Shown here: positions 3,279-21,973 of the stretch, one piece after another | Layout: every line of letters starts with the position of its first letter | How positions within the stretch are numbered: the stretch's first letter is position 1 | IMG/VR virus record: IMGVR_UViG_3300021373_001270 | Span: 1-26,817 of that record | Direction: 5' to 3' (one strand) | DNA: 26,817 nucleotides | Source: a virus | The notes under the pieces: model-generated | Seen by the model: only the letters and a program-made list of their open reading frames with translations | Databases searched by the model: none | What the model was told of the DNA's origin: nothing | Made by a program: the position numbers and the translations under genes

Positions 3279-3442
3279 ACTAAGTATTTCTCCCTGTCTT
3301 TCTTTGCAGTATATATTGTTCCAGTCTTACGACCATAGTAAGGTTCTTTTTCAATCCCCTTTGTTCCTTCTGAATCAATGAGTAATCCGATAATCCCATA
3401 GAGACTTCCAATCATCATTGCTCCTAATAACACTCCGTCCAT
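3275..3442 (-). CDS. 55-residue membrane-anchored small protein
   Basis: Read from the sequence between nrdB and glutaredoxin. MDGVLLGAMMIGSLYGIIGL is one predicted membrane helix with Gly/Ala spacing, followed by LIDSEGTKGIEKEPYYGRKT and a basic soluble tail. Its ATG overlaps the nrdB stop (TAATG) and its TGA overlaps the glutaredoxin ATG (ATGA), which makes translation very likely. No family recognised. It could place some of the nucleotide-reducing machinery near the membrane, but that is speculation. Confidence 0.75.
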   Translation of the reverse strand: MDGVLLGAMMIGSLYGIIGLLIDSEGTKGIEKEPYYGRKTGTIYTAKKDREKYLV

Positions 3443-4539
3443 TATAGTTTAAAGTCCTCAAATGTAGAATCATCTACATCTTGTTTTATACCACCTATGA
3501 GATAAGATTCAATCTCAGTCTCTTGTGGTGCATTCTGAAGTCCTCTACTGTTGAACCAATGTTTAGTCCATGGTAAAGGGTTATTCGTTGAACTAATGTC
3601 GTATATAGGGTTTAAACCAATTGCACGTAATCTCTTGTTTGCAATGTACTCGACATAGTTCCCTAAAAGTTGTGTTGATAATCCAATCATTGACCCATGT
3701 TGAAATAAGAAGTCTGCCCAATCTTTTTCTTGTTGAACTGCATCTTCATACATCTGATATACTTCCTGTTCACAATCCTTCATGACTTGGTTCATTAACT
3801 TATCATTCTCGTGTTTCTGATAACACTTCAATATGTGTTGTGAGATTGCAAGATGTTGTGATTCGTCCCTTGCAATTAGAGATATAATCTTTGCACTACC
3901 TTCCATCATCTTAAGTTCACCGAATCCAAACGAACATGCAAAGGATACAAAGAATCTGATTCCTTCTAATATGTTTACAGATATAAGTGCAAGGTATAAT
4001 GATTTATAAAGGTCATAATCGTCAACTTTTAATCCAAGTAGTCTTCTACGACCAAGTGCAATAAACTCATCATACTTTTCAGTGACCATTTCTGCACGTT
4101 TTACAATTGCATCTTCGTCTAATATAGTATCAAAGATATCACTTGGGTCTGAGTATACATTCTTTATAATATGAGTATAAGAACGTGAATGGATTGTCTC
4201 CATGAAATCCCATGTGATGATACAAGACTCCAGTTCGGGTAGGGTCACAAATGGTAAGAATGCTATGGATGGAGCCCTACCCTGCACTGAATCTAGTAAT
4301 GTTTGATATCTTAAATTTGAAGTAAATATGTGTTTTTGTGCATCATTCAATTGTTGGTAATCACTTCTATCTTTTTGTAGAGACACTTCTTCAGGTCTCC
4401 AAAAGAATCCCAATTGTGTTTGTGTAAGTTTATCGAATATAGGATATTTAAACTCATCAAATCTTTGAGTGTTTAATTCTTCACCAAAGAATATTTTGTT
4501 CTTTGTAAAGTCTATATTCTTTTTGTTGAATACCGTCAT
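3442..4539 (-). CDS. nrdB: Ribonucleotide reductase class I, small (radical) subunit
   Basis: 365 residues, normal length for NrdB. All dimetal-site residues are visible: Asp83 in LLDSVQGR, Glu114 and His117 in METIHSRSY, Glu192 in LEGIRFF, Glu226 and His229 in RDESQHL. Tyr121 of HSRSY is the radical tyrosine, so this is a tyrosyl-radical (class Ia type) enzyme and not a radical-less variant. It partners NrdA to reduce ribonucleoside diphosphates to deoxyribonucleotides for phage DNA synthesis. The start overlaps the stop of the upstream oxygenase gene by 4 bases (ATGA). Confidence 0.97.
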   Translation of the reverse strand: MTVFNKKNIDFTKNKIFFGEELNTQRFDEFKYPIFDKLTQTQLGFFWRPEEVSLQKDRSDYQQLNDAQKHIFTSNLRYQTLLDSVQGRAPSIAFLPFVTLPELESCIITWDFMETIHSRSYTHIIKNVYSDPSDIFDTILDEDAIVKRAEMVTEKYDEFIALGRRRLLGLKVDDYDLYKSLYLALISVNILEGIRFFVSFACSFGFGELKMMEGSAKIISLIARDESQHLAISQHILKCYQKHENDKLMNQVMKDCEQEVYQMYEDAVQQEKDWADFLFQHGSMIGLSTQLLGNYVEYIANKRLRAIGLNPIYDISSTNNPLPWTKHWFNSRGLQNAPQETEIESYLIGGIKQDVDDSTFEDFKL

Positions 4540-5510
4540 TTATCTTCTACTCTCTTTATGTGGGAAAAGTTATTTATATATTCTTTTGGGTCGTATTTCC
4601 TTTCATTCCAATCTCTACTTATTTGTTGGAATTCATGTGATTGTGTTTCTTGAGCAGAAACATATCTATTTGGTCTACCATCGTATGCAAGTACACTTCT
4701 TTTGTGAGGCATACCTTCTCCTACCTCTAATTGTCCATTAGGTAAATCTTGAATCCTACCCAACTCATTTATCCAGTGACAAAACATATGATATGTGTAT
4801 TCACCCACAAACGTATCTCTCCAATGAATTACATTAGGCCCTTGATACAATAACATATCTCCAACCTCAAGTGTAATACATTTCATCGATGGGTCTTCCT
4901 TTCTTTTTCTAATTGGAACACTTTGAGAAATACTTTGTACATAATCATGGTCGTATTGTTTACCTTCATCATCACTTACATAATTTCTATCGTTTTTTAC
5001 CCATATTTTCCATGGTTTATTATCGTCTGATTTATAATCTAAACATAATGTAGAACTTACTTCACATGATGGTCTATCCAAATGTGCAGTTAAATATGCA
5101 CCTCGGTCATATTTTCTTGTATACACATATGTTTCTTGAAGAGATAAATCTAAAACCTCATTCAACCTTTTAGTAAGATAATTATGCATCATCACACCCA
5201 TAGGTGTTGTGTGTCCACCGTGTGATTTAAATAAACTTTCAGTTGGTGATTTGTATATAATATCTTCTTCTAAATCAAAAATTGCATCATGCATACGAGG
5301 TTGACTTTCGATAGTCTTCCAAACGTCCATCGTCATTTCTATTATTTCTTTGGGAATAAAATTCTTTAACACTAGATATCCATTTTCCATAAAGAACATG
5401 GTTTCTTCATTAGTCCAACCAGTAATCGGTTTATTACCATCGTTGAATGAAGTTTGAATTTTTACATTTTTTTCATTATATTGCACAGGCGTCACAATCC
5501 TCCTCGTCAT
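4536..5510 (-). CDS. 2OG-Fe(II) oxygenase family protein lying between nrdA and nrdB
   Basis: Up to 324 residues. FFMENGYLVLKNFIPKEII resembles the N-terminal entry of phytanoyl- or prolyl-hydroxylase folds. The iron triad is visible: LTAHLDRP (His143, Asp145) and NVIHWRD (His229), with VGDMLLYQG as the strand before the distal His. The substrate is unknown; protein or small-molecule hydroxylation are both possible. The reading frame begins 34 bases inside nrdA. The ATG at 5510 has no ribosome site, while a GTG at 5495, five codons later, directly follows GAGGAGG (only 3 bases between), so the true start may be 5495. It is coupled downstream to nrdB by an ATGA overlap, so expression is locked to the reductase. 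Confidence 0.85.
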   Translation of the reverse strand: MTRRIVTPVQYNEKNVKIQTSFNDGNKPITGWTNEETMFFMENGYLVLKNFIPKEIIEMTMDVWKTIESQPRMHDAIFDLEEDIIYKSPTESLFKSHGGHTTPMGVMMHNYLTKRLNEVLDLSLQETYVYTRKYDRGAYLTAHLDRPSCEVSSTLCLDYKSDDNKPWKIWVKNDRNYVSDDEGKQYDHDYVQSISQSVPIRKRKEDPSMKCITLEVGDMLLYQGPNVIHWRDTFVGEYTYHMFCHWINELGRIQDLPNGQLEVGEGMPHKRSVLAYDGRPNRYVSAQETQSHEFQQISRDWNERKYDPKEYINNFSHIKRVEDK

Positions 5511-7779
5511 TATAATTTGACATTACATTAGCTGCATCTTCTACTGCACTTGGTTTATCTTCTATTACGTCTTCAGTTTTACCGTCCATAGTATTCTGAT
5601 AATACGAAGTTTTCCATCCGTATTTATATGTGTTTAACAAGTCTCTTGCCATTACTGATACTGGAACTTCTCCATTCTCATAATTTTCAGGGTTGTAAGA
5701 CCAGTTCCCACTAATTGCTTGGTCAAAGAACTTCTGCATGACTGCAATTACATTTATATACCCCTCATTGGATTTCATATCCCATAGAAGTGTATAACTG
5801 TTCTTTAAGTGTGAGTATTGTGGAACAACCTGTTTGAGTGTTCCTTTCTTACTCTTCTTAACACTTAGATAATCTCTTGGTGGTTCTACTCCATTAGTTG
5901 CATTAGAAACCACTGAGGAACTCTCTGAGGGCATTTGTGCAGAAAGTGTAGAGTGTCTTAGACCAAACTCCTTTATATCCTTTCTTAATTCTTCCCAGTC
6001 ATATCTAAGTTTAGGGTTTGCAATCTCATCTACTTCTTTTTTATAATGGTCAATGGGTAATTTACCCTCTGCATATTTTGTTCTATGGAAGTATTCACAT
6101 GCACCTTTTTCTTTTGCAATGTTATTGGATGCACGTAATAGATTGTATTGGAAACTCTCTGTAAGTTCGTGTACGAGGTTCCATGCATTAGGGTCATCAT
6201 ACTTAACCTTATTCTTTGCGAGGAAGTGTGCGAGTCCTATGTATCCTATACCAAGACTTCTTCTTGCGAGTGTTGACCTTTGAGCTGCAGTCACTGGATA
6301 CTGTTGATAATCAATCAACTCTTCCAATCCTCTTACTGCGAGGTCACATAGGTTCTCTAGTTCTTCTTCCTTAATAATACCCACATTGATTGCAGATAAA
6401 ATACACAATGCAATCTCACCGTCCCCATCAATGTGTTCGATTGGGTCTGTAGGTAAAGTAATTTCTTGACAAAGATTACTCATGTTCACTTTGTCAAGAA
6501 AACTACTATGTTCATTACAATGGTCAATATTCATAATGTATATTCTACCAGTCTCTGCACGTTCTTTTAATAAATCTGTAATAAGTTCTCTTGCACTTAT
6601 TTTCTTTTTAGGAATAGAAGTTGCACGTTCATACTTCATGTATAATTCGTCAAACTCAGGTGTTCCAAATGCATCGTATAATCCCTCTACGTCTTGAGGT
6701 GAGAACAATGTAATCTCTTCATTCTTCAGAAATCTTTCATAGAAGAGTTTTGATAATTGTATTGAGTAGTCTAATTTACGTACTCTGTTGTCTTCTGTTC
6801 CTTTGTTGTTTTTGAGGACGATAATGTCTTCGATTTCTTGGTGCCATATTGGGAAGTGAACAGTTGCACTTCCACCTCGGACACCATTTTGTGTACAACA
6901 TCGTACTGTTGACTCAAATTTTTTAAGGAAAGGTATAACTCCTGTATGTTGGACTTCACCACCTCTAATTTTTGAACCAATACCACGTATTCTTCCTGCG
7001 TTAATTCCGATACCCGCTCTTTGTGCGACATACCTTCCGATAGCCATATCAGACGAGAAGATACTTCCGAGAGTGTCGTCTGAATCGACAAGGACACACG
7101 ATGCAAATTGTCTAAGTGGTGTTCTAACTCCTGCCATAATTGGGGTTGGTATGTTGATTTTAAATGTTGATATTGCATCATAGTACCTCTTTACATAATC
7201 TAATTTATTTGTATAATTTCTAAACAATGTCATTGCAATTAACATGTACATGAATTGTGGTGTTTCATATACAACATTGTTTGACCTATCTTGAACTAGA
7301 TACTTATCTACAATCTGTTGCAATCCTGCATATGTAAAATCTGTATCTCTTCCGTGTTTGATGTATTTGTTTAGTTCGTTAATCTCTTCTTCTGAATAAA
7401 AGTTTAGTATATCAGAATCGTAAACTCCATAATCTATATTTCTTTGAATGATATCACCAAGTGGTGGATAAATTTCTGAGTCTTTCCATTTTGTATTGAA
7501 CACTTGTTTCTGTATTCCAAAAAGTAATAATCTTGCGGCAACGAATTGATAATTTGGTGATTCTAGTGAAATCAAATCACTTGCACTTTTCACCAATATC
7601 TTTTGTATCTCTTGTGTTGTAATCCCATCAAAGAATTGAAGACCACTATTCATTTCTACTAACGATTCAGAAACACCTGTAATACCTCTACATGCTTTCT
7701 CAACCATTCTATGGATTTTATCTAAATTTATTTCTACCTTTGACCCGTCAGACTTTACAACCTTGATATCCGTGTTCAT
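5476..7779 (-). CDS. nrdA: Ribonucleotide reductase class I, large (catalytic) subunit
   Basis: 767 residues. An N-terminal ATP-cone occupies about residues 1-95 (KVVKSDGSKVEINLDKIHR onward). The catalytic barrel shows FASCVLVD with the first active-site Cys, NLCQEITLP with the Asn/Cys/Glu catalytic set, and MPSESSS. Near the C-terminus TSYYQN holds the two tyrosines of the radical pathway, and the tail ends CDACAI, a CxxC that exchanges electrons with glutaredoxin. Together with NrdB it makes deoxyribonucleotides. Its ATG overlaps the primase stop by 4 bases. An ATP-cone implies that allosteric activity regulation may be retained. Confidence 0.97.
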   Translation of the reverse strand: MNTDIKVVKSDGSKVEINLDKIHRMVEKACRGITGVSESLVEMNSGLQFFDGITTQEIQKILVKSASDLISLESPNYQFVAARLLLFGIQKQVFNTKWKDSEIYPPLGDIIQRNIDYGVYDSDILNFYSEEEINELNKYIKHGRDTDFTYAGLQQIVDKYLVQDRSNNVVYETPQFMYMLIAMTLFRNYTNKLDYVKRYYDAISTFKINIPTPIMAGVRTPLRQFASCVLVDSDDTLGSIFSSDMAIGRYVAQRAGIGINAGRIRGIGSKIRGGEVQHTGVIPFLKKFESTVRCCTQNGVRGGSATVHFPIWHQEIEDIIVLKNNKGTEDNRVRKLDYSIQLSKLFYERFLKNEEITLFSPQDVEGLYDAFGTPEFDELYMKYERATSIPKKKISARELITDLLKERAETGRIYIMNIDHCNEHSSFLDKVNMSNLCQEITLPTDPIEHIDGDGEIALCILSAINVGIIKEEELENLCDLAVRGLEELIDYQQYPVTAAQRSTLARRSLGIGYIGLAHFLAKNKVKYDDPNAWNLVHELTESFQYNLLRASNNIAKEKGACEYFHRTKYAEGKLPIDHYKKEVDEIANPKLRYDWEELRKDIKEFGLRHSTLSAQMPSESSSVVSNATNGVEPPRDYLSVKKSKKGTLKQVVPQYSHLKNSYTLLWDMKSNEGYINVIAVMQKFFDQAISGNWSYNPENYENGEVPVSVMARDLLNTYKYGWKTSYYQNTMDGKTEDVIEDKPSAVEDAANVMSNYNDEEDCDACAI

Positions 7780-11777: not shown

Positions 11778-12206
11778 TTAATCTAAAGTTCCGTAAACTT
11801 TGTAAGAACCTGTTTCTAACTGTTCGTATCGAATGTTAAGATTGTAGACTATTTCTTCTTTATCGATTTCATCGATAGGTGTGTCTACTGATTTACCCAT
11901 GATTTGTCCATATCTAGAAAATGGCATGACAAATGAACCATTTGCTTCACTGAACTCTACATCAGAAACTTCATTTCTTGGGTCTTCTGATGGTACACTT
12001 GTTCTATTTAATCCTAATAGTGCAAGTTTCGCTTCCATTTGTTTTACTGCAGACATTGGATTTAGAAATTCTGATACTGCAGTGTGACCTAAAATCGCAT
12101 TGATTTTTGCCTTAACGTCTGCATCATTAATATCATAAGGAACTTTCTCTGAAGTTCTTAAATCTATTCCTTGTGCTTCTGTTATAAAATTTTTAAATGA
12201 TTTCAT
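11778..12206 (-). CDS. Putative capsid-targeted (internal head) protein
   Basis: 142 residues. The N-terminus MKSFKNFITEAQG closely resembles the capsid-targeting sequence of T4 internal proteins (MKTYQEFIAEA), and ITE followed by Ala is a consensus cleavage site of the T4 prohead protease gp21, (L/I)xE before A/G/S. The mature part is mixed alpha/beta (INAILGHTAVSEFL, SFVMPFSRYGQIMG, ELETGSYKVYGTL-like end). A ribosome site AGGA precedes the ATG. The N-terminal match is seen directly; packaging and cleavage are inferred from T4 biology. The mature domain is not recognised. Confidence 0.75.
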   Translation of the reverse strand: MKSFKNFITEAQGIDLRTSEKVPYDINDADVKAKINAILGHTAVSEFLNPMSAVKQMEAKLALLGLNRTSVPSEDPRNEVSDVEFSEANGSFVMPFSRYGQIMGKSVDTPIDEIDKEEIVYNLNIRYEQLETGSYKVYGTLD

Positions 12207-17154: not shown

Positions 17155-17691
17155 TTACCAAAAAAATGAACCCCCACCACTTAAACCTAATTGTTTTGCA
17201 TAGTGTGGTAATCTACATGCCCAATATGATGCAGTTGTTTTATCGTTCTGTTGGTCACATTTATGACGAGCTGCGAATGATTTTCTTGCATCTTTATTGT
17301 TTAATTTTACTTTGAGACCTGTTGTGTCTCCCCATGTAATCTTTTTGACTTTGTCTCCGTCTTTCACATAGACGTAATATTTTTTTGGGCCACCGACTTT
17401 TGGTTTGTTGAGTTCGGGTTGTTTTTCTTCTTTTTCCTCTACTATCATCGGACAATCGAGAGGGACTAATTCACCCTCATATACTTCGAATTCACCTAAA
17501 TCAGTCTCTAGTATTTGTTTGTCAACCTCTGTAAGTGTGTATCGACCCTCTGCAACTAGTTTACGTGCTTCTTTGATGGTCTCAAAATACATCATAGAAC
17601 CTAATCTAAACGGATTGTCTAATAGGTTTGTTTTCTCCTGTTGGAGTGTATCAAGTGTTTCGCTGATTGCAAGTTGGTGAAAGGTTTTCAT
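17155..17691 (-). CDS. Virion-associated candidate with FAARHKC...YWACR domain
   Basis: 178 residues from the ATG at 17691, which overlaps the upstream stop (TAATG); a longer frame has no support. The N-terminus MKTFHQLAISETLDTLQ is similar to T4-type targeting sequences but has Thr after the Glu. The C-terminal 75 residues (KKYYVYVKDGDKVKKITWGD, ARKSFAARHKCD, KTTASYWACRLP) form a compact conserved-looking domain with Cys and His that may bind zinc; I have seen this style in proteins near phage heads, without known activity. It ends Gly-rich plus FFW. Confidence 0.72.
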   Translation of the reverse strand: MKTFHQLAISETLDTLQQEKTNLLDNPFRLGSMMYFETIKEARKLVAEGRYTLTEVDKQILETDLGEFEVYEGELVPLDCPMIVEEKEEKQPELNKPKVGGPKKYYVYVKDGDKVKKITWGDTTGLKVKLNNKDARKSFAARHKCDQQNDKTTASYWACRLPHYAKQLGLSGGGSFFW

Positions 17692-18182
17692 TATCCACCT
17701 GCTTTCTTTGCGAGGTCTTTGTCTGCACCACCCCATGTTCCTTTTGATTTAGTGACAAAGGAATTCACTCTTGCATGTCCCCATTGGACTGCTGTAGTGC
17801 CTGGTCTATGACCTGATTGCCATGCCTTTACACCTCTTTGGAATACTTGTTTGAGTATACCTAAAGATATACCAGTCTTCTCCGCCTTTTTCTTTAATGA
17901 TGCATCAGGACTTTCTTCTAAATCTTCTTCTTCAACTTCTGCAATTGATTCTTCTTTAAGTCTTACTTTGATTGCTTCGTTGTAAGGGAAACCTTTTAAA
18001 GGATTATCAAACACTTGACCGAAGTGTTTCTTTTTCTTTTCTTTTGCTTCTTCGTGATATGCTTTATTTCTATCCTCGATATATTTTTCTACTGCCTGTC
18101 CTGGCGTATCTTCCTGATATGCATTTCTGATTTCATCAGTTCCTACTTCGTGGACTCCGTTATCGTGTTTATTTCCTGCCAT
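17691..18182 (-). CDS. 163-residue protein with HRPGTTAVQWGHARVNSF motif
   Basis: The N-terminal half is charged and disordered-looking (EKYIEDRNKAYHEEAKEKKK). The C-terminal domain from about residue 100 (KTGISLGILKQVFQRGVKAW, SGHRPGTTAVQWGHARVNSF, TWGGADKDLAKK) is a conserved phage domain of unknown function that I recognise by its HRPGTT/WxxARVNSF signature. LEE/S before this domain matches the prohead-protease consensus. The start lies 14 bases inside the previous gene. Probably virion-associated; no biochemical role known to me. Confidence 0.72.
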   Translation of the reverse strand: MAGNKHDNGVHEVGTDEIRNAYQEDTPGQAVEKYIEDRNKAYHEEAKEKKKKHFGQVFDNPLKGFPYNEAIKVRLKEESIAEVEEEDLEESPDASLKKKAEKTGISLGILKQVFQRGVKAWQSGHRPGTTAVQWGHARVNSFVTKSKGTWGGADKDLAKKAGG

Positions 18183-19479
18183 TTGGTAATAACCCCTTTT
18201 CTTTTAGTTTTCTAAGTCTAGGTTCAGACCTATTGTATTTTTGTGATACAATCGATAGATTAGACTTATCGTTGTTCATAGGGTTATTATCCTTATGATG
18301 TACGTCTTTTCCTTTTATATCTTTTCTATCTTTTAAAATTCTACGTGCTTCATTTCTTTTTGCACGTCTTTTAATTTGTTCAGGTTTAGAGTGATAATCT
18401 GCATACTCTTTTTTATAATCCCTATCTTCCTCAACCTCTTCTTTCTTATTTTTCTTGATAGATTGTCTTGCAAGTTTTATTATTCGTTGTTGATGTGCTT
18501 TTTGATTAGACTTTTCTTTATCTCTTAATTTATCTGCAAGTCTTTCTTCAATAGTTTCTTCGGATTGTGATTCTCTTTTCTTTTCTGCAGATTTTCTATC
18601 TGCATCACGTTTTGACTGAATCTGTTTATCTTGTGTTTCTTTTTCTTTTTGACCTTCTACTCTTTTAGTTTCTCTATCGTGTCTATCTTTAAGTGCTTCT
18701 AATTCTTGTTCATGGTTTGCCTTGAGTCTTTCCATTTCTTCTGCATGTTTTGCCTTAAGTTGAGCTGCATCAACAGCTGCATCTTCTTGTAGTGAATCAC
18801 CCATTCTTAAAAATAGAGTTCCTTTCTTTTGTTCTTTATCTGATACAGTCATTCCAACCATTTTTGCAATTTGATTTACAAGTTTTACACCATCTGACTC
18901 TCTCTTTCTATATAAGTTTTCCATTTTCTTTTGGATTTCTTTTGCAACTGTTTTTATAACTTGATGTGCTGGTGCAACTAATTTACCTTCTTCTAGTTGT
19001 TCACCCATAACTAAACCTGATAATTGTTGTGCAATTACTACGAGTTGTGATTGTGGTAATGATGCAAGGACTTCCATTTGTTTTTTAGATAAACCTTTGA
19101 CTTTAGATAATGCCTTTTTGATATCAACCTTTTCTTCTATTTCTTCGGGAACACAATTAGGAACCATTTTGTCCCCTTTCTTTTTCATACCTTTTTGTGT
19201 ATATCCATCCCAACACTCATCCTGTTCTCCTTCTCCAAACATTTTCTTATACTTCTTAGTGTGTTGAGAAGGTTTTGTTTCTGCACCTTTATCGCCTGGT
19301 GCAGGTTCTGTACTACCACCTTTACTAAAGTGAGCTGCACGTTTATCTTTTGTAGACTTAGACATTTCATCCCCGTCAGCATCTTTTGCATAGTACTTTT
19401 TAGGTTGAGTGCCTTTTTTATCCTCAACATCTTTATCCTGTTGAGTTCGTCTTAACTTTTCTCTTAAACTTTCTAACAT
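18169..19479 (-). CDS. Virion-cluster protein with long coiled coil and C-terminal HNH-like motif
   Basis: 436 residues. N-terminal disordered Lys-rich part with YYAKDADGDEMSKSTKDKRA; a block with CWDGYTQKGMKKKGDKMVPN; a helical block 120-190; a long coiled coil from about 230 to 330 (ERLKANHEQELEALKDRHDR); then a C-terminal module KDVHHKDNNPMNNDKSNLSI (His394, His395, Asp397, Asn398...), which is the beta-beta-metal HNH nuclease pattern HHxDxNPxNNxxxNL. The ATG lies 5 bases after CCTAAATAG and lacks a Shine-Dalgarno. The HNH motif is seen directly; whether it is catalytic or used for DNA binding is unknown. LEE/G near 155 is a possible maturation site. Confidence 0.75.
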   Translation of the reverse strand: MLESLREKLRRTQQDKDVEDKKGTQPKKYYAKDADGDEMSKSTKDKRAAHFSKGGSTEPAPGDKGAETKPSQHTKKYKKMFGEGEQDECWDGYTQKGMKKKGDKMVPNCVPEEIEEKVDIKKALSKVKGLSKKQMEVLASLPQSQLVVIAQQLSGLVMGEQLEEGKLVAPAHQVIKTVAKEIQKKMENLYRKRESDGVKLVNQIAKMVGMTVSDKEQKKGTLFLRMGDSLQEDAAVDAAQLKAKHAEEMERLKANHEQELEALKDRHDRETKRVEGQKEKETQDKQIQSKRDADRKSAEKKRESQSEETIEERLADKLRDKEKSNQKAHQQRIIKLARQSIKKNKKEEVEEDRDYKKEYADYHSKPEQIKRRAKRNEARRILKDRKDIKGKDVHHKDNNPMNNDKSNLSIVSQKYNRSEPRLRKLKEKGLLPNGRK

Positions 19480-19480
19480 A

Positions 19481-19492
19481 CTACTATTTAGG
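19481..19492 (-). promoter_or_regulatory. Late promoter motif CCTAAATAGTAG
   Basis: CCTAAATAGTAG, one base, then ATG at 19479. The 12 bases are identical to those at 22007-22018. Confidence 0.6.
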
Positions 19493-20771
19493 TCTTTTTA
19501 GACTGTAATTCCTGTTCTCTCCATTTCAGAGCAGGTTTGTTTGAAGGGAATGAAGTAGTCCATCCCATTAATTTTGCATAGAGACTATTTGCTTTCTTCT
19601 CTAAAGTTTCGAGGTCATCATCATTTCTTACCTCTACAAAGTCTCTACCAAAAATCTTCTTAAGATTATTCATATTTTTTTGTGCATTTTCCCAGTCTTT
19701 TTGCACAATTTCTTTTGGTAATTTTCTCGGTCTCATTTCATTTCGTTTTTGTGCATTATCTAGAGATGCGTTTACGTATATCATTTTTGATTCATATCCG
19801 ATTTTATCTAACATTGTTTTGTATGCCTTTACCTTTGTAAGGTTTGCACTTGTAGTGTCAAATATCATACCAAGTCTACCCATAATATAGCCGTCCATAT
19901 TCTTTGCAGTAATCTTTTTTGCCTTTGCACGGATTGGGTCTACTTTACTAAAGTCTGCACCTCTAAGGTCAAGTGTAAGTCCTGCCTTTTTAAGTCCGTT
20001 CTCGAATGCTTTATCTGTATTAACAAGTTTAAGACCAAGTGCCTTTAAAGATAATTTATCTACGACTGTAGATTTTCCTGAACCTGGCCCACCTGAGAAG
20101 AACACTGCCTTGAATACGCCTGGGTCATATACACCTTCTGTAATCAAATCTTCTACCATATAGTGTGGAAGTGTTCCTTCTGCAATACCCATTCCTTTAC
20201 GGATATCTTTATATAATAATTCTTTGTCTCTCTTATTTCTTGTTGGAACTCCGTCTGAGAATGCATCAAAGTCTCCCTTCTCTGCATATGCTCTCATTTT
20301 ACTTGCACTCATTCCACTTACGTCATCACTATTAGAATCTCTTTCTCCTGCAGATACAACTTCAATAGAATCAAACTTGTAGAATCCATGACGTGCTTTA
20401 ACTCCGTTATATTTGTTCAATAACATGTCAAATTCTTTGATACGGTCTGAACCTACAACCATTCTTATTTTTTTATATCCTTTATAGTGTAGTTCATTTG
20501 CAATATCAAACACTGTTCTTGCATTTGCATCAACAACAATTCTTCCGAAAAATTTTCTTAGATATTTTATTTTGTCTTTGTGTGATAGTGGATTTTTTTG
20601 ACGGTCATTCGAGTGTGAAGTAAACAAAAGAGGCACATATCCACCACCAGTTTCTTTCTTCAATTTATCGACTAACTTTGCATGTCCAGTAGTTGGAGGG
20701 TTAAATCGTCCAAAGGTAAATACTGCACCCTTGTCTTTTGCTTCTGTTAAAAATTTACCAAATGTTTTCAT
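19488..20771 (-). CDS. Capsid-targeted nucleotidyltransferase-kinase fusion (predicted)
   Basis: 427 residues. The ATG at 20771 overlaps the upstream stop (TAATG). Residues 1-11, MKTFGKFLTEA, nearly copy the T4 internal-protein targeting sequence MKTYQEFIAEA, and LTE/A is a prohead-protease site. Next is an HxGH-type nucleotidyltransferase domain: VFTFGRFNPPTTGHAKL (TTGH at about 27-30) and SGMSASKMRAYAE (ISSTxxR-like motif). After a second protease-like site, LITE/G near 212, comes a P-loop kinase-like domain: VFFSGGPGSGKSTVVDKL (Walker A 227-235), NTDKAF, and a late basic RPRKLP lid. The order resembles NadR (NMN adenylyltransferase plus ribosylnicotinamide kinase), but the kinase part looks more zeta-toxin/polynucleotide-kinase-like. 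Substrates are unknown. Confidence 0.83.
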   Translation of the reverse strand: MKTFGKFLTEAKDKGAVFTFGRFNPPTTGHAKLVDKLKKETGGGYVPLLFTSHSNDRQKNPLSHKDKIKYLRKFFGRIVVDANARTVFDIANELHYKGYKKIRMVVGSDRIKEFDMLLNKYNGVKARHGFYKFDSIEVVSAGERDSNSDDVSGMSASKMRAYAEKGDFDAFSDGVPTRNKRDKELLYKDIRKGMGIAEGTLPHYMVEDLITEGVYDPGVFKAVFFSGGPGSGKSTVVDKLSLKALGLKLVNTDKAFENGLKKAGLTLDLRGADFSKVDPIRAKAKKITAKNMDGYIMGRLGMIFDTTSANLTKVKAYKTMLDKIGYESKMIYVNASLDNAQKRNEMRPRKLPKEIVQKDWENAQKNMNNLKKIFGRDFVEVRNDDDLETLEKKANSLYAKLMGWTTSFPSNKPALKWREQELQSKKT

Positions 20772-21973
20772 TAGTTGTCCCAATTCTTTTGTGCAGTAAA
20801 GTTATTAAATGCAAACTCCATTCTATCTACGAGTTTTACAGCACTACCTGTTTTGTCAATTGCAACATATCCTTCAGGATTTACTGCTTCAAAACCTTTA
20901 TCAGTCTTTTTGAAAGTTCCGATACTCTTTATTCTATTTAGTCCAGTGATGATAATCTGTTTTGCTTCTACTAGATAACCCATAAAGTCCGTCAAGTTTT
21001 CGATAAGTTTTTTAAGACCTCTCATTTCTGCGTAAAGTTGGTCACCTATTTCTGTTTTGATTTGTTTAGTTTTTTCCATTTTAACTTTTGCAACTACTTT
21101 ATTTTTCCAATACGATTGAAAAAATTGCATGTATCCATTATAAGAAGGATTGTATTTACCGTCTCTGATAAGTGTGTTGCAATATGTCTTGTATGAACCA
21201 CCAGCACCTTTTTGGAGTATAGTTTCTTGCACTTTCATAAACTTCTCTAATTCTTTTCTTTTTATACCATGGAATGCTTTACCTACTGCAGTGAGTTTTG
21301 AAGTAAGTGCAAGTGTTTCTTTTGCAGTGAGTGTAGAATTACCTGATACGTCTTTGTATGTCGCATCATCAACCCATACGTCTCTACTTTTACCTAAAGT
21401 AGAAATATTTGCACCAAAAGATGCAGATAGGTCTTCGATTGAACTACCAGTGTAAGTAGTGTGAAACACTATTCCCATTTTTGCATCGTCAATCTCTTTA
21501 CCCAATACGGAATCTTTTTGAACTGCGTATAGAATAGTATTTGGTTGGAAAGTTATAAACGATTCACCATTTATTTTTTGTGTCTTTTTATCGTCTGTAA
21601 ACATCAAATCGCCTTGCATGACATTTGACCATGATAATTTGGATAGATATTTAAAAGAGGTTAGGAACTTTTCCTGTAATTGATTTGAAAGACTTGAATC
21701 GTCTTTGATTTCTTGTTCAGTTGTATAAAACTTAGGTTCTTTATTAAAAAGTGATTTTTTTGCAACAAAAAATCTACCATCATCAGGATGTTTTCCACAA
21801 AAGATTGCAGGAGCTCCGTCCCATTTGACTGTCATGTTTACTGAAGAGTTAGAACTACCCTTCATCATGTCTCGAAGACCTCGTAAGAAGTTTATTGCAC
21901 CACGACCACCATCAATCCCCTGATTGATAATCTCGTCTTCTAAATGTTCAAGATGTAAGTTTTTTGCACCCAT
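20771..21973 (-). CDS. Predicted covalent nucleotidyltransferase (ligase-fold) protein
   Basis: 400 residues. MTVKWDGAPAIFCG holds motif I of ATP-dependent ligases and capping enzymes (Lys50-Trp-Asp-Gly, the AMP-lysine site). VMQGDLMF (119-125) fits motif III with Asp for Glu. NPEGYVAIDKTGSAVKLVDR fits motif IV (Glu367-Gly-Tyr-Val) and motif V (Lys380-Leu-Val). The gap between motifs III and IV, about 240 residues, is far longer than in known ligases and includes a helical block with many Lys. The start has no Shine-Dalgarno and lies 7 bases past a TATAAT. It is coupled to the nucleotidyltransferase-kinase gene by TAATG. The protein type occurs in marine T4-like phages as an uncharacterised family; ligase activity is inference. 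Confidence 0.78.
   Translation of the reverse strand: MGAKNLHLEHLEDEIINQGIDGGRGAINFLRGLRDMMKGSSNSSVNMTVKWDGAPAIFCGKHPDDGRFFVAKKSLFNKEPKFYTTEQEIKDDSSLSNQLQEKFLTSFKYLSKLSWSNVMQGDLMFTDDKKTQKINGESFITFQPNTILYAVQKDSVLGKEIDDAKMGIVFHTTYTGSSIEDLSASFGANISTLGKSRDVWVDDATYKDVSGNSTLTAKETLALTSKLTAVGKAFHGIKRKELEKFMKVQETILQKGAGGSYKTYCNTLIRDGKYNPSYNGYMQFFQSYWKNKVVAKVKMEKTKQIKTEIGDQLYAEMRGLKKLIENLTDFMGYLVEAKQIIITGLNRIKSIGTFKKTDKGFEAVNPEGYVAIDKTGSAVKLVDRMEFAFNNFTAQKNWDN

Follow-up and report, generated by a model that had tools for sequence, protein, structure and literature searches.

An enzyme fusion with a T4-type capsid-targeting sequence, a probable head cargo of a marine T4-like phage

Does a phage enzyme that begins like an internal head protein of T4 travel inside the virus particle, and what would it do once delivered? 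The question is raised by a gene on a 26.8-kb virus fragment (the whole stretch of DNA analysed, called the window below). A first-pass annotation had described it as a nucleotidyltransferase-kinase fusion with a T4-like capsid-targeting N-terminus. The feature is real, and its strand, which that annotation did not give, is minus. The closest annotated relatives by the enzyme protein are Pelagibacter phage HTVC008M, Methylophilales phage Melnitz, Phage C48C1 and cyanophages, all listed as Kyanoviridae, and the gene probably encodes a cargo enzyme of a marine T4-like phage of this type. The best explanation overall, and one that is held with considerable confidence, is that of a tagged enzyme that is packaged in the head and would be ejected with the DNA; an activity in repair is a guess.

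The gene and its enzyme domains

The reading frame starts at an ATG at 20771 on the minus strand, ends with a stop codon that finishes at 19488, and encodes a protein of 427 amino acids with the N-terminus MKTFGKFLTEAKDKGAVFTFGRFNPPTTGH. Its parts are:

19488..20771, minus: coding sequence for the tag, nucleotidyltransferase and P-loop kinase, 427 aa
20742..20771, minus: capsid-targeting sequence MKTFGKFLTE (residues 1-10) with a predicted prohead-protease cut at E10/A11, from the T4 match and conservation
20187..20729, minus: nucleotidyltransferase domain, residues ~15-195, NMNAT/NadR-like superfamily, from profile matches
20682..20693, minus: TTGH, the (H/T)xGH nucleotidyltransferase motif, from the sequence
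20292..20318, minus: SGMSASKMR, from the sequence and alignment
19617..20114, minus: P-loop kinase domain, residues ~220-385, AAA_33/zeta/PSTK/PNK-like, from profile matches
20067..20093, minus: Walker A motif GGPGSGKST, residues 227-235, from the sequence

Among relatives, the ATG and the tag are kept while the codons 5' of the ATG vary, which supports the start codon at 20771; an alternative TTG start four codons upstream was rejected for the same reason. The start overlaps the stop codon of the upstream DUF6267 gene by one base (TAATG).

Both enzyme motifs that had been noted, TTGH and the GGPGSGKST P-loop, are present. Orthologues from S-SZBM1, S-N03 and S-CREM2 have PHxGH at the position of the former, and SGMSASKMR is presumably the counterpart of the ISxTxxR motif in NMNAT-type enzymes. 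The nucleotidyltransferase domain matches CTP_transf_like PF01467 (27.9 bits against a cutoff of 21), phrog_3041 'cytidyltransferase' (6.3e-58) and PHROG 395 (1.9e-47). The kinase domain matches AAA_33 PF13671 (37.9 bits against a cutoff of 27), phrog_505 polynucleotide kinase (1.7e-8) and Zeta_toxin PF06414, which is the top Pfam match by E-value (38.5 bits against a cutoff of 22.3).

The N-terminal tag

In the T4 record, the internal proteins IPII and IPIII begin with MKTYQEFIAEA and IPI with MKTFKEF..ITEA. The N-terminal tag that these proteins share with Alt is ten residues long, with aromatic residues at positions 4 and 7 and (I/L)xE preceding a small residue; propeptides of internal head proteins of this kind measure about 10-19 residues. 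A review (PMC9026906) assigns targeting to residues 4 and 7 of the T4 capsid-targeting sequence and processing to residues 8 and 10. The enzyme has F, F, L and E at these four positions and thus matches T4 at every position important there, so that the likeness claimed for MKTFGKFLTEA holds at positions 4, 7, 8 and 10. In a model of the enzyme, residues 1-11 have a pLDDT below 50.

Protein starts were searched with the strict pattern M-x(0-2)-K-x-[FYW]-x-x-[FYWLM]-[ILMV]-x-E-[AGS]. Two of the 36 genes in the window match, the enzyme gene and one other, against 0.0005 expected from shuffled N-termini:

11778..12206, minus: second tagged protein of the window, MKSFKNFITE/AQ, 142 aa, from the strict pattern

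Among annotated phages, homologues of this second protein occur only in HTVC008M and Melnitz, and a search for a family match gave none. Whole relatives yield 0-2 matches against 0.002-0.004 expected from shuffling: one or two per genome in G001, G002 and C48C1, and none at the protein starts of the HTVC008M and Melnitz genomes. The shuffles, together with the conservation described below, reject a chance origin of the enzyme's N-terminus.

Among 49 distinct close homologues, K2, F4, F7, E10 and A11 are near-invariant and positions 5, 6 and 9 variable. At the cleavage site L8-T9-E10/A11, E is conserved in 94%, P3 in 94% and A/G/S in 92%, untagged homologues included. When cyanophage, Melnitz and HTVC008M orthologues (29-37% identity) are added, conservation of K2, F4 and E10 stays at 90% or more, while the residues after the tag (~85) are unrelated in most cyanophage orthologues. 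The tag is kept at 76 of 80 close-relative loci, but homologues of the kind that the first-pass annotation had named as a refutation, with the enzyme domains and without the segment, do occur: the remaining four (L059, L060, L078 and L080) start with MKEVSFTFGRFNPPTTGH, the HTVC008M enzyme has a degenerate tag (MKTLKELLRKK), and distant homologues in Caulobacter phage Cr30 and E. coli jumbo phages keep the domains without a tag. Since some homologues retain the domains without it, the tag is a module that can be gained and lost rather than a universal feature. The four untagged close relatives retain both of the linker sites discussed below, or near-forms of them. Another tagged protein was looked for at these loci and none was found; compensation by a tagged DUF6267 protein is absent in L059, L060 and L080, and L078 ends before DUF6267.

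The head machinery was read in the near-complete relatives G001, G002, HTVC008M, Melnitz and C48C1, where homologues of gp20, gp21, gp22 and gp23 were found, including the protease of gp21 type and core of gp22 type that accompany the T4 internal proteins and Alt. The gp23 proteins of the five carry NLEEA, FLGEI, FLSEA, FLTET or TLDEA aligned exactly with the T4 gp23 maturation site FLTEA, and four of the five gp21 homologues have IxEA near their own N-terminus. Because gp23 and gp21 homologues carry such sites, the specificity of a gp21-type protease fits the FLTE/A of the tag. Residues 1-10 would then be a T4-type capsid-targeting sequence, which is well supported, with F4 and F7 directing the enzyme into the prohead core and the protease presumably cutting after E10 during maturation.

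The linker, the neighbouring genes and the activity

The enzyme belongs with the capsid-targeting-sequence cargo of T4-like phages, among which T4 Alt, cut at ITE-6 and LTE-619, is the precedent for an enzyme as cargo. The cargo here is a nucleotidyltransferase-kinase fusion rather than a small IP-type protein or an ADP-ribosyltransferase, and unlike the T4 proteins it has conserved candidate cut sites between its domains. These sites, which are new beyond the first-pass finding, are:

20175..20186, minus: IAEG (residues 196-199), the first of two conserved linker sites that are candidates for the prohead protease, from conservation
20133..20144, minus: ITEG (residues 210-213), second conserved candidate site, in a low-confidence stretch, from conservation and the model

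Among the 49 homologues, Glu reaches at least 90% conservation in nine columns, of which only three fit [ILVM]xE/[AGS]. E10 closes the tag, E198 and E212 flank the inter-domain linker, and P2 holds 4-6 kinds of residue. In the first linker site, I and E are found in all 49 homologues and A/G/S follows E in 96%; in the second, E and G are found in all 49 and P2 is variable. Over the whole window, the excess of [IL]xE[AGS] is not significant (18 observed, 17.1 expected), and the argument for the linker therefore rests on conservation and not on site density. The enzyme gene is the sole gene that stands out, with 3 sites against 0.57 expected (p about 0.015, uncorrected for 39 genes).

Residues 199-219 of the linker have a pLDDT below 50 in the model and are predicted to be flexible. 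HTVC008M encodes the same two enzymes, near its DUF6267 gene gp127, as separate genes in the opposite order: gp130, with a degenerate tag (MKTLKELL), lacks an [ILV]xE[AGS] site, and the kinase gp129 starts with MIPFILKE/GLYDPG and keeps a candidate site (LKE/G). Taken together, the linker sites, the low model confidence and the separate HTVC008M kinase suggest that the fusion may be a polyprotein processed in the head into two enzymes, with possible cuts after E198 and/or E212 separating the nucleotidyltransferase from the kinase.

That the tag is real and the linker stays uncut, leaving one bifunctional packaged enzyme like NadR or the ATP sulfurylase/APS kinase fusions, falls just short of an even chance. 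Nucleotidyltransferase-kinase single chains are known (matches to NadR 6gye and to 1m8p and 3cr8), and conservation extends over the whole linker, to residues without bearing on cleavage as well (P202, Y204, M205, E207 and D216). The Glu residues of so uniformly conserved a linker may therefore serve folding and not cleavage. Against this stand the protease context of both Glu residues with their variable P2, the predicted flexibility of the stretch and the split arrangement in HTVC008M.

The genes around the enzyme gene include:

20771..21973, minus: upstream gene DUF6267, overlapping the enzyme gene by one base and untagged here, from profile and motifs
18169..19479, minus: downstream gene; in Melnitz its N-terminal part follows the tagged nucleotidyltransferase in one chain, from comparison with Melnitz
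17691..18182, minus: DUF5824 gene, which follows the nucleotidyltransferase in the same chain in Melnitz, HTVC008M and L296, from profile and comparison
17155..17736, minus: gene that supplies (in part) the last segment of this Melnitz polyprotein, from comparison with Melnitz

The Melnitz-3 protein QZI94972 has a tag-like start, MKKFSEIIEARG, followed by the orthologous nucleotidyltransferase. It is a 650-aa chain without the kinase that joins, in this order, the first half of 19488-20771 and parts of 18169-19479, 17691-18182 and 17155-17736, which in the window (17155-19479) are three individual genes. Polyprotein-like fusions of the nucleotidyltransferase with DUF5824 and other genes separate in the window were observed at L002:8001-9953, L001:10666-12456 and L296:2071-3363; several [ILV]xE[AGS] sites occur in those of Melnitz and L296 and none in that of HTVC008M.

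The DUF6267 protein has nine invariant residues among 21 divergent members (K50, D52, G53, Q120, D122, E367, G368, V370 and V382). Its KxDG, EGxV and KLV (V382) resemble what we take to be the KxDG/EGxV/KxV motifs of covalent nucleotidyltransferases (ligases), and QxD is also among its invariant motifs. Such motifs suggest a covalent, ligase-type nucleotidyltransferase. Structural proof failed: the AlphaFold model is poor (mean pLDDT 71.5, with residues 39-53 and 348-400 below 50), and searches with Foldseek and against PDB profiles gave no match. DUF6267 is tagged in L229, L257, L286, C48C1 and Melnitz, and the phrog_455 profile matches both DUF6267 and the nucleotidyltransferase, each in a different part.

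The 'nucleotide-metabolic or end-healing' activity first proposed for the enzyme is a reasonable guess from fold families. A PDB search for a clue to the substrate gave weak matches to NadR and L-seryl-tRNA(Sec) kinase, generic P-loop kinase folds and nothing more. Because the kinase is PNK/PSTK-like and the neighbour ligase-like, end repair is slightly favoured as a guess, with NAD rebuilding second. The (H/T)xGH nucleotidyltransferase and a phosphotransferase resembling a 5'-OH polynucleotide kinase might carry out nucleotide or nucleic-acid repair, with the ligase-like DUF6267 protein probably joining in to combine end healing and sealing; alternatively, they might rebuild NAD-type dinucleotides.

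The latter would resemble NadR in pairing an NMNAT-like enzyme with a nucleoside kinase; carried in the virion from the start, the pair would restore NAD+ against host defences that deplete it. This is rather unlikely. NadR has the same domain order, nucleotidyltransferase then P-loop kinase, and the nucleotidyltransferase shows weak similarity to it (TIGR01526, 8e-5; PDB profile 6gye, 0.014) and to NMNAT families. However, membership of NadR was rejected, since the score of 22 bits is far below the curated cutoff of 341, and the kinase half matches AAA_33, zeta, PSTK and PNK families rather than AAA_28, which is presumably the family of the NadR kinase (E = 0.06). A ligase-like neighbour is also unlike an enzyme of pyridine nucleotides. 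On the other side, cyanophage authors named the S-SCSM1 orthologue NMNAT (PMC9602691), and NAD+ reconstitution by phages is an established counter-defence (PMC12774641).

Virions and the tag on other proteins

Orthologues of the nucleotidyltransferase appear in cyanophages under the names 'cytidylyltransferase', T4-GC190, Syn9 gp184 and S-SCSM1 'NMNAT' (PHROG 3041, 395), with the same tag and mostly in the same neighbourhood, near gp41 and DUF6267. Most differ from the window enzyme in two ways: the tag is followed by a variable insert of up to ~90 aa, and the kinase is replaced by a different C-terminal domain. Four of them were detected in purified virions by mass spectrometry: T4-GC190 of S-SM1 (PMC3037559), ORF154 of S-CREM2 (PMC10665884), S-SZBM1_140 of S-SZBM1 (PMC9146016) and ORF91 of S-SCSM1 (PMC9602691). 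Their N-termini are MKKFSAFLNEA in S-SM1, MKNFSSFLTEA in S-CREM2, MRFRQFIIEA in S-SZBM1 and MKSFLQFLKEA in S-SCSM1. The tag is thus present on all four T4-like orthologues reported in purified virions, none of these isolates having the exact nucleotidyltransferase-kinase fusion.

The proteomics authors themselves raised the carry-over of a highly expressed enzyme (S-CREM2, PMC10665884; S-SCSM1, PMC9602691). The protein would in that case be an ordinary cytoplasmic enzyme of the infection stage, and its N-terminus would have a different role, for instance as an amphipathic helix that binds a partner. The small number of peptides, three for S-CREM2 (PMC10665884) and two for S-SZBM1 (PMC9146016), and the existence of untagged relatives speak for this. 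An untagged NMNAT has also been reported in virions of S-CBWM1, but because it lacks the tag and comes from another phage type, that case alone is weakened. Carry-over is nevertheless improbable, since the presence of the protein in virions is reported by several independent studies of cyanophages, and the tag fits the T4 targeting and cleavage residues and occurs on several unrelated proteins of such phages. The packaging in the head that had been proposed is supported both by the tagged orthologues in virions and by the conservation of the tag far beyond that of the adjoining sequence, and packaging of the enzyme in the virus particle is well supported. The current picture is that the enzyme would be present in the mature virion, as others have shown for orthologues, and would be ejected with the DNA and active before phage genes are expressed.

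That the kinase half is of zeta type, phosphorylating UDP-GlcNAc and injected for early disturbance of the host, is very improbable: despite the Zeta_toxin match and the 50 bits of HTVC008M gp129, the AAA_33, PSTK and phage PNK families score comparably, and the match thus probably reflects the shared P-loop fold.

On repeated occasions, proteomic studies of cyanophages have detected a 'cytidylyltransferase/NMNAT' in particles, with no mechanism to account for it and with contamination that the authors could not rule out. For the T4-like orthologues, the tag provides a testable reason for their presence in virions. Its connection with the enzyme appears to be unrecorded, as no published link was found in the open-access literature searched, and the papers on the cyanophage orthologues that were consulted make no mention of the tag. 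It can also be used to look for enzymes that abundant aquatic T4-like phages may inject.

A DNA-pattern scan of IMG/VR viral contigs for the tag alone, in which proportions are indicative, gave at least 79 usable proteins in at least 27 similarity clusters, most of them without known function. Among the matches listed, the largest cluster is the present nucleotidyltransferase family (33 of 79), Q or E is favoured at the unconstrained position 6, and the other tagged proteins include DUF6267 (L229, L257 and L286), DUF5661 and DUF6321 proteins, a DPBB domain (L235), a GNAT acetyltransferase (L243) and a 5'-3' deoxyribonucleotidase (L260). It may be, though this is put forward tentatively and stands somewhat below an even chance, that marine and freshwater T4-like phages have a modular system of enzyme injection in which the ten-residue tag is moved between unrelated enzymes, several of them polyproteins cut in the head, so that a kit for end repair or nucleotide rebuilding enters with the DNA. 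The enzymes in question are the present nucleotidyltransferase and its kinase fusion, the ligase-like DUF6267, a 5'-3' deoxyribonucleotidase, an acetyltransferase and DPBB domains.

Several individual loci were observed in passing. At L260:519-1094, the tag is fused to a 5'-3' deoxyribonucleotidase (phrog_2643), a candidate injected enzyme. L243:3736-4529 holds an adjacent tagged pair, one a GNAT acetyltransferase and the other weakly RNA 2'-phosphotransferase-like, and at L235:5138-5554 and in L281 the tag is found on a DPBB (lytic transglycolase/RlpA-like) domain. For the C48C1 cytidyltransferase (L003:5990-7407, WJE87962), the deposited start, MNPPTIGH, truncates the catalytic motif, and a GTG start further upstream gives the tag-like IKNFSQYLLEE. 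In cyanophage P-SSM7, another protein close to the nucleotidyltransferase (L138:4997-5515) has the tag-like start MKTYSQFIEEGKK. Elsewhere in the window, an oxygenase-like gene (4536-5510) was seen by eye between genes for ribonucleotide-reductase-like large (5476-7779) and small (3442-4539) subunits.
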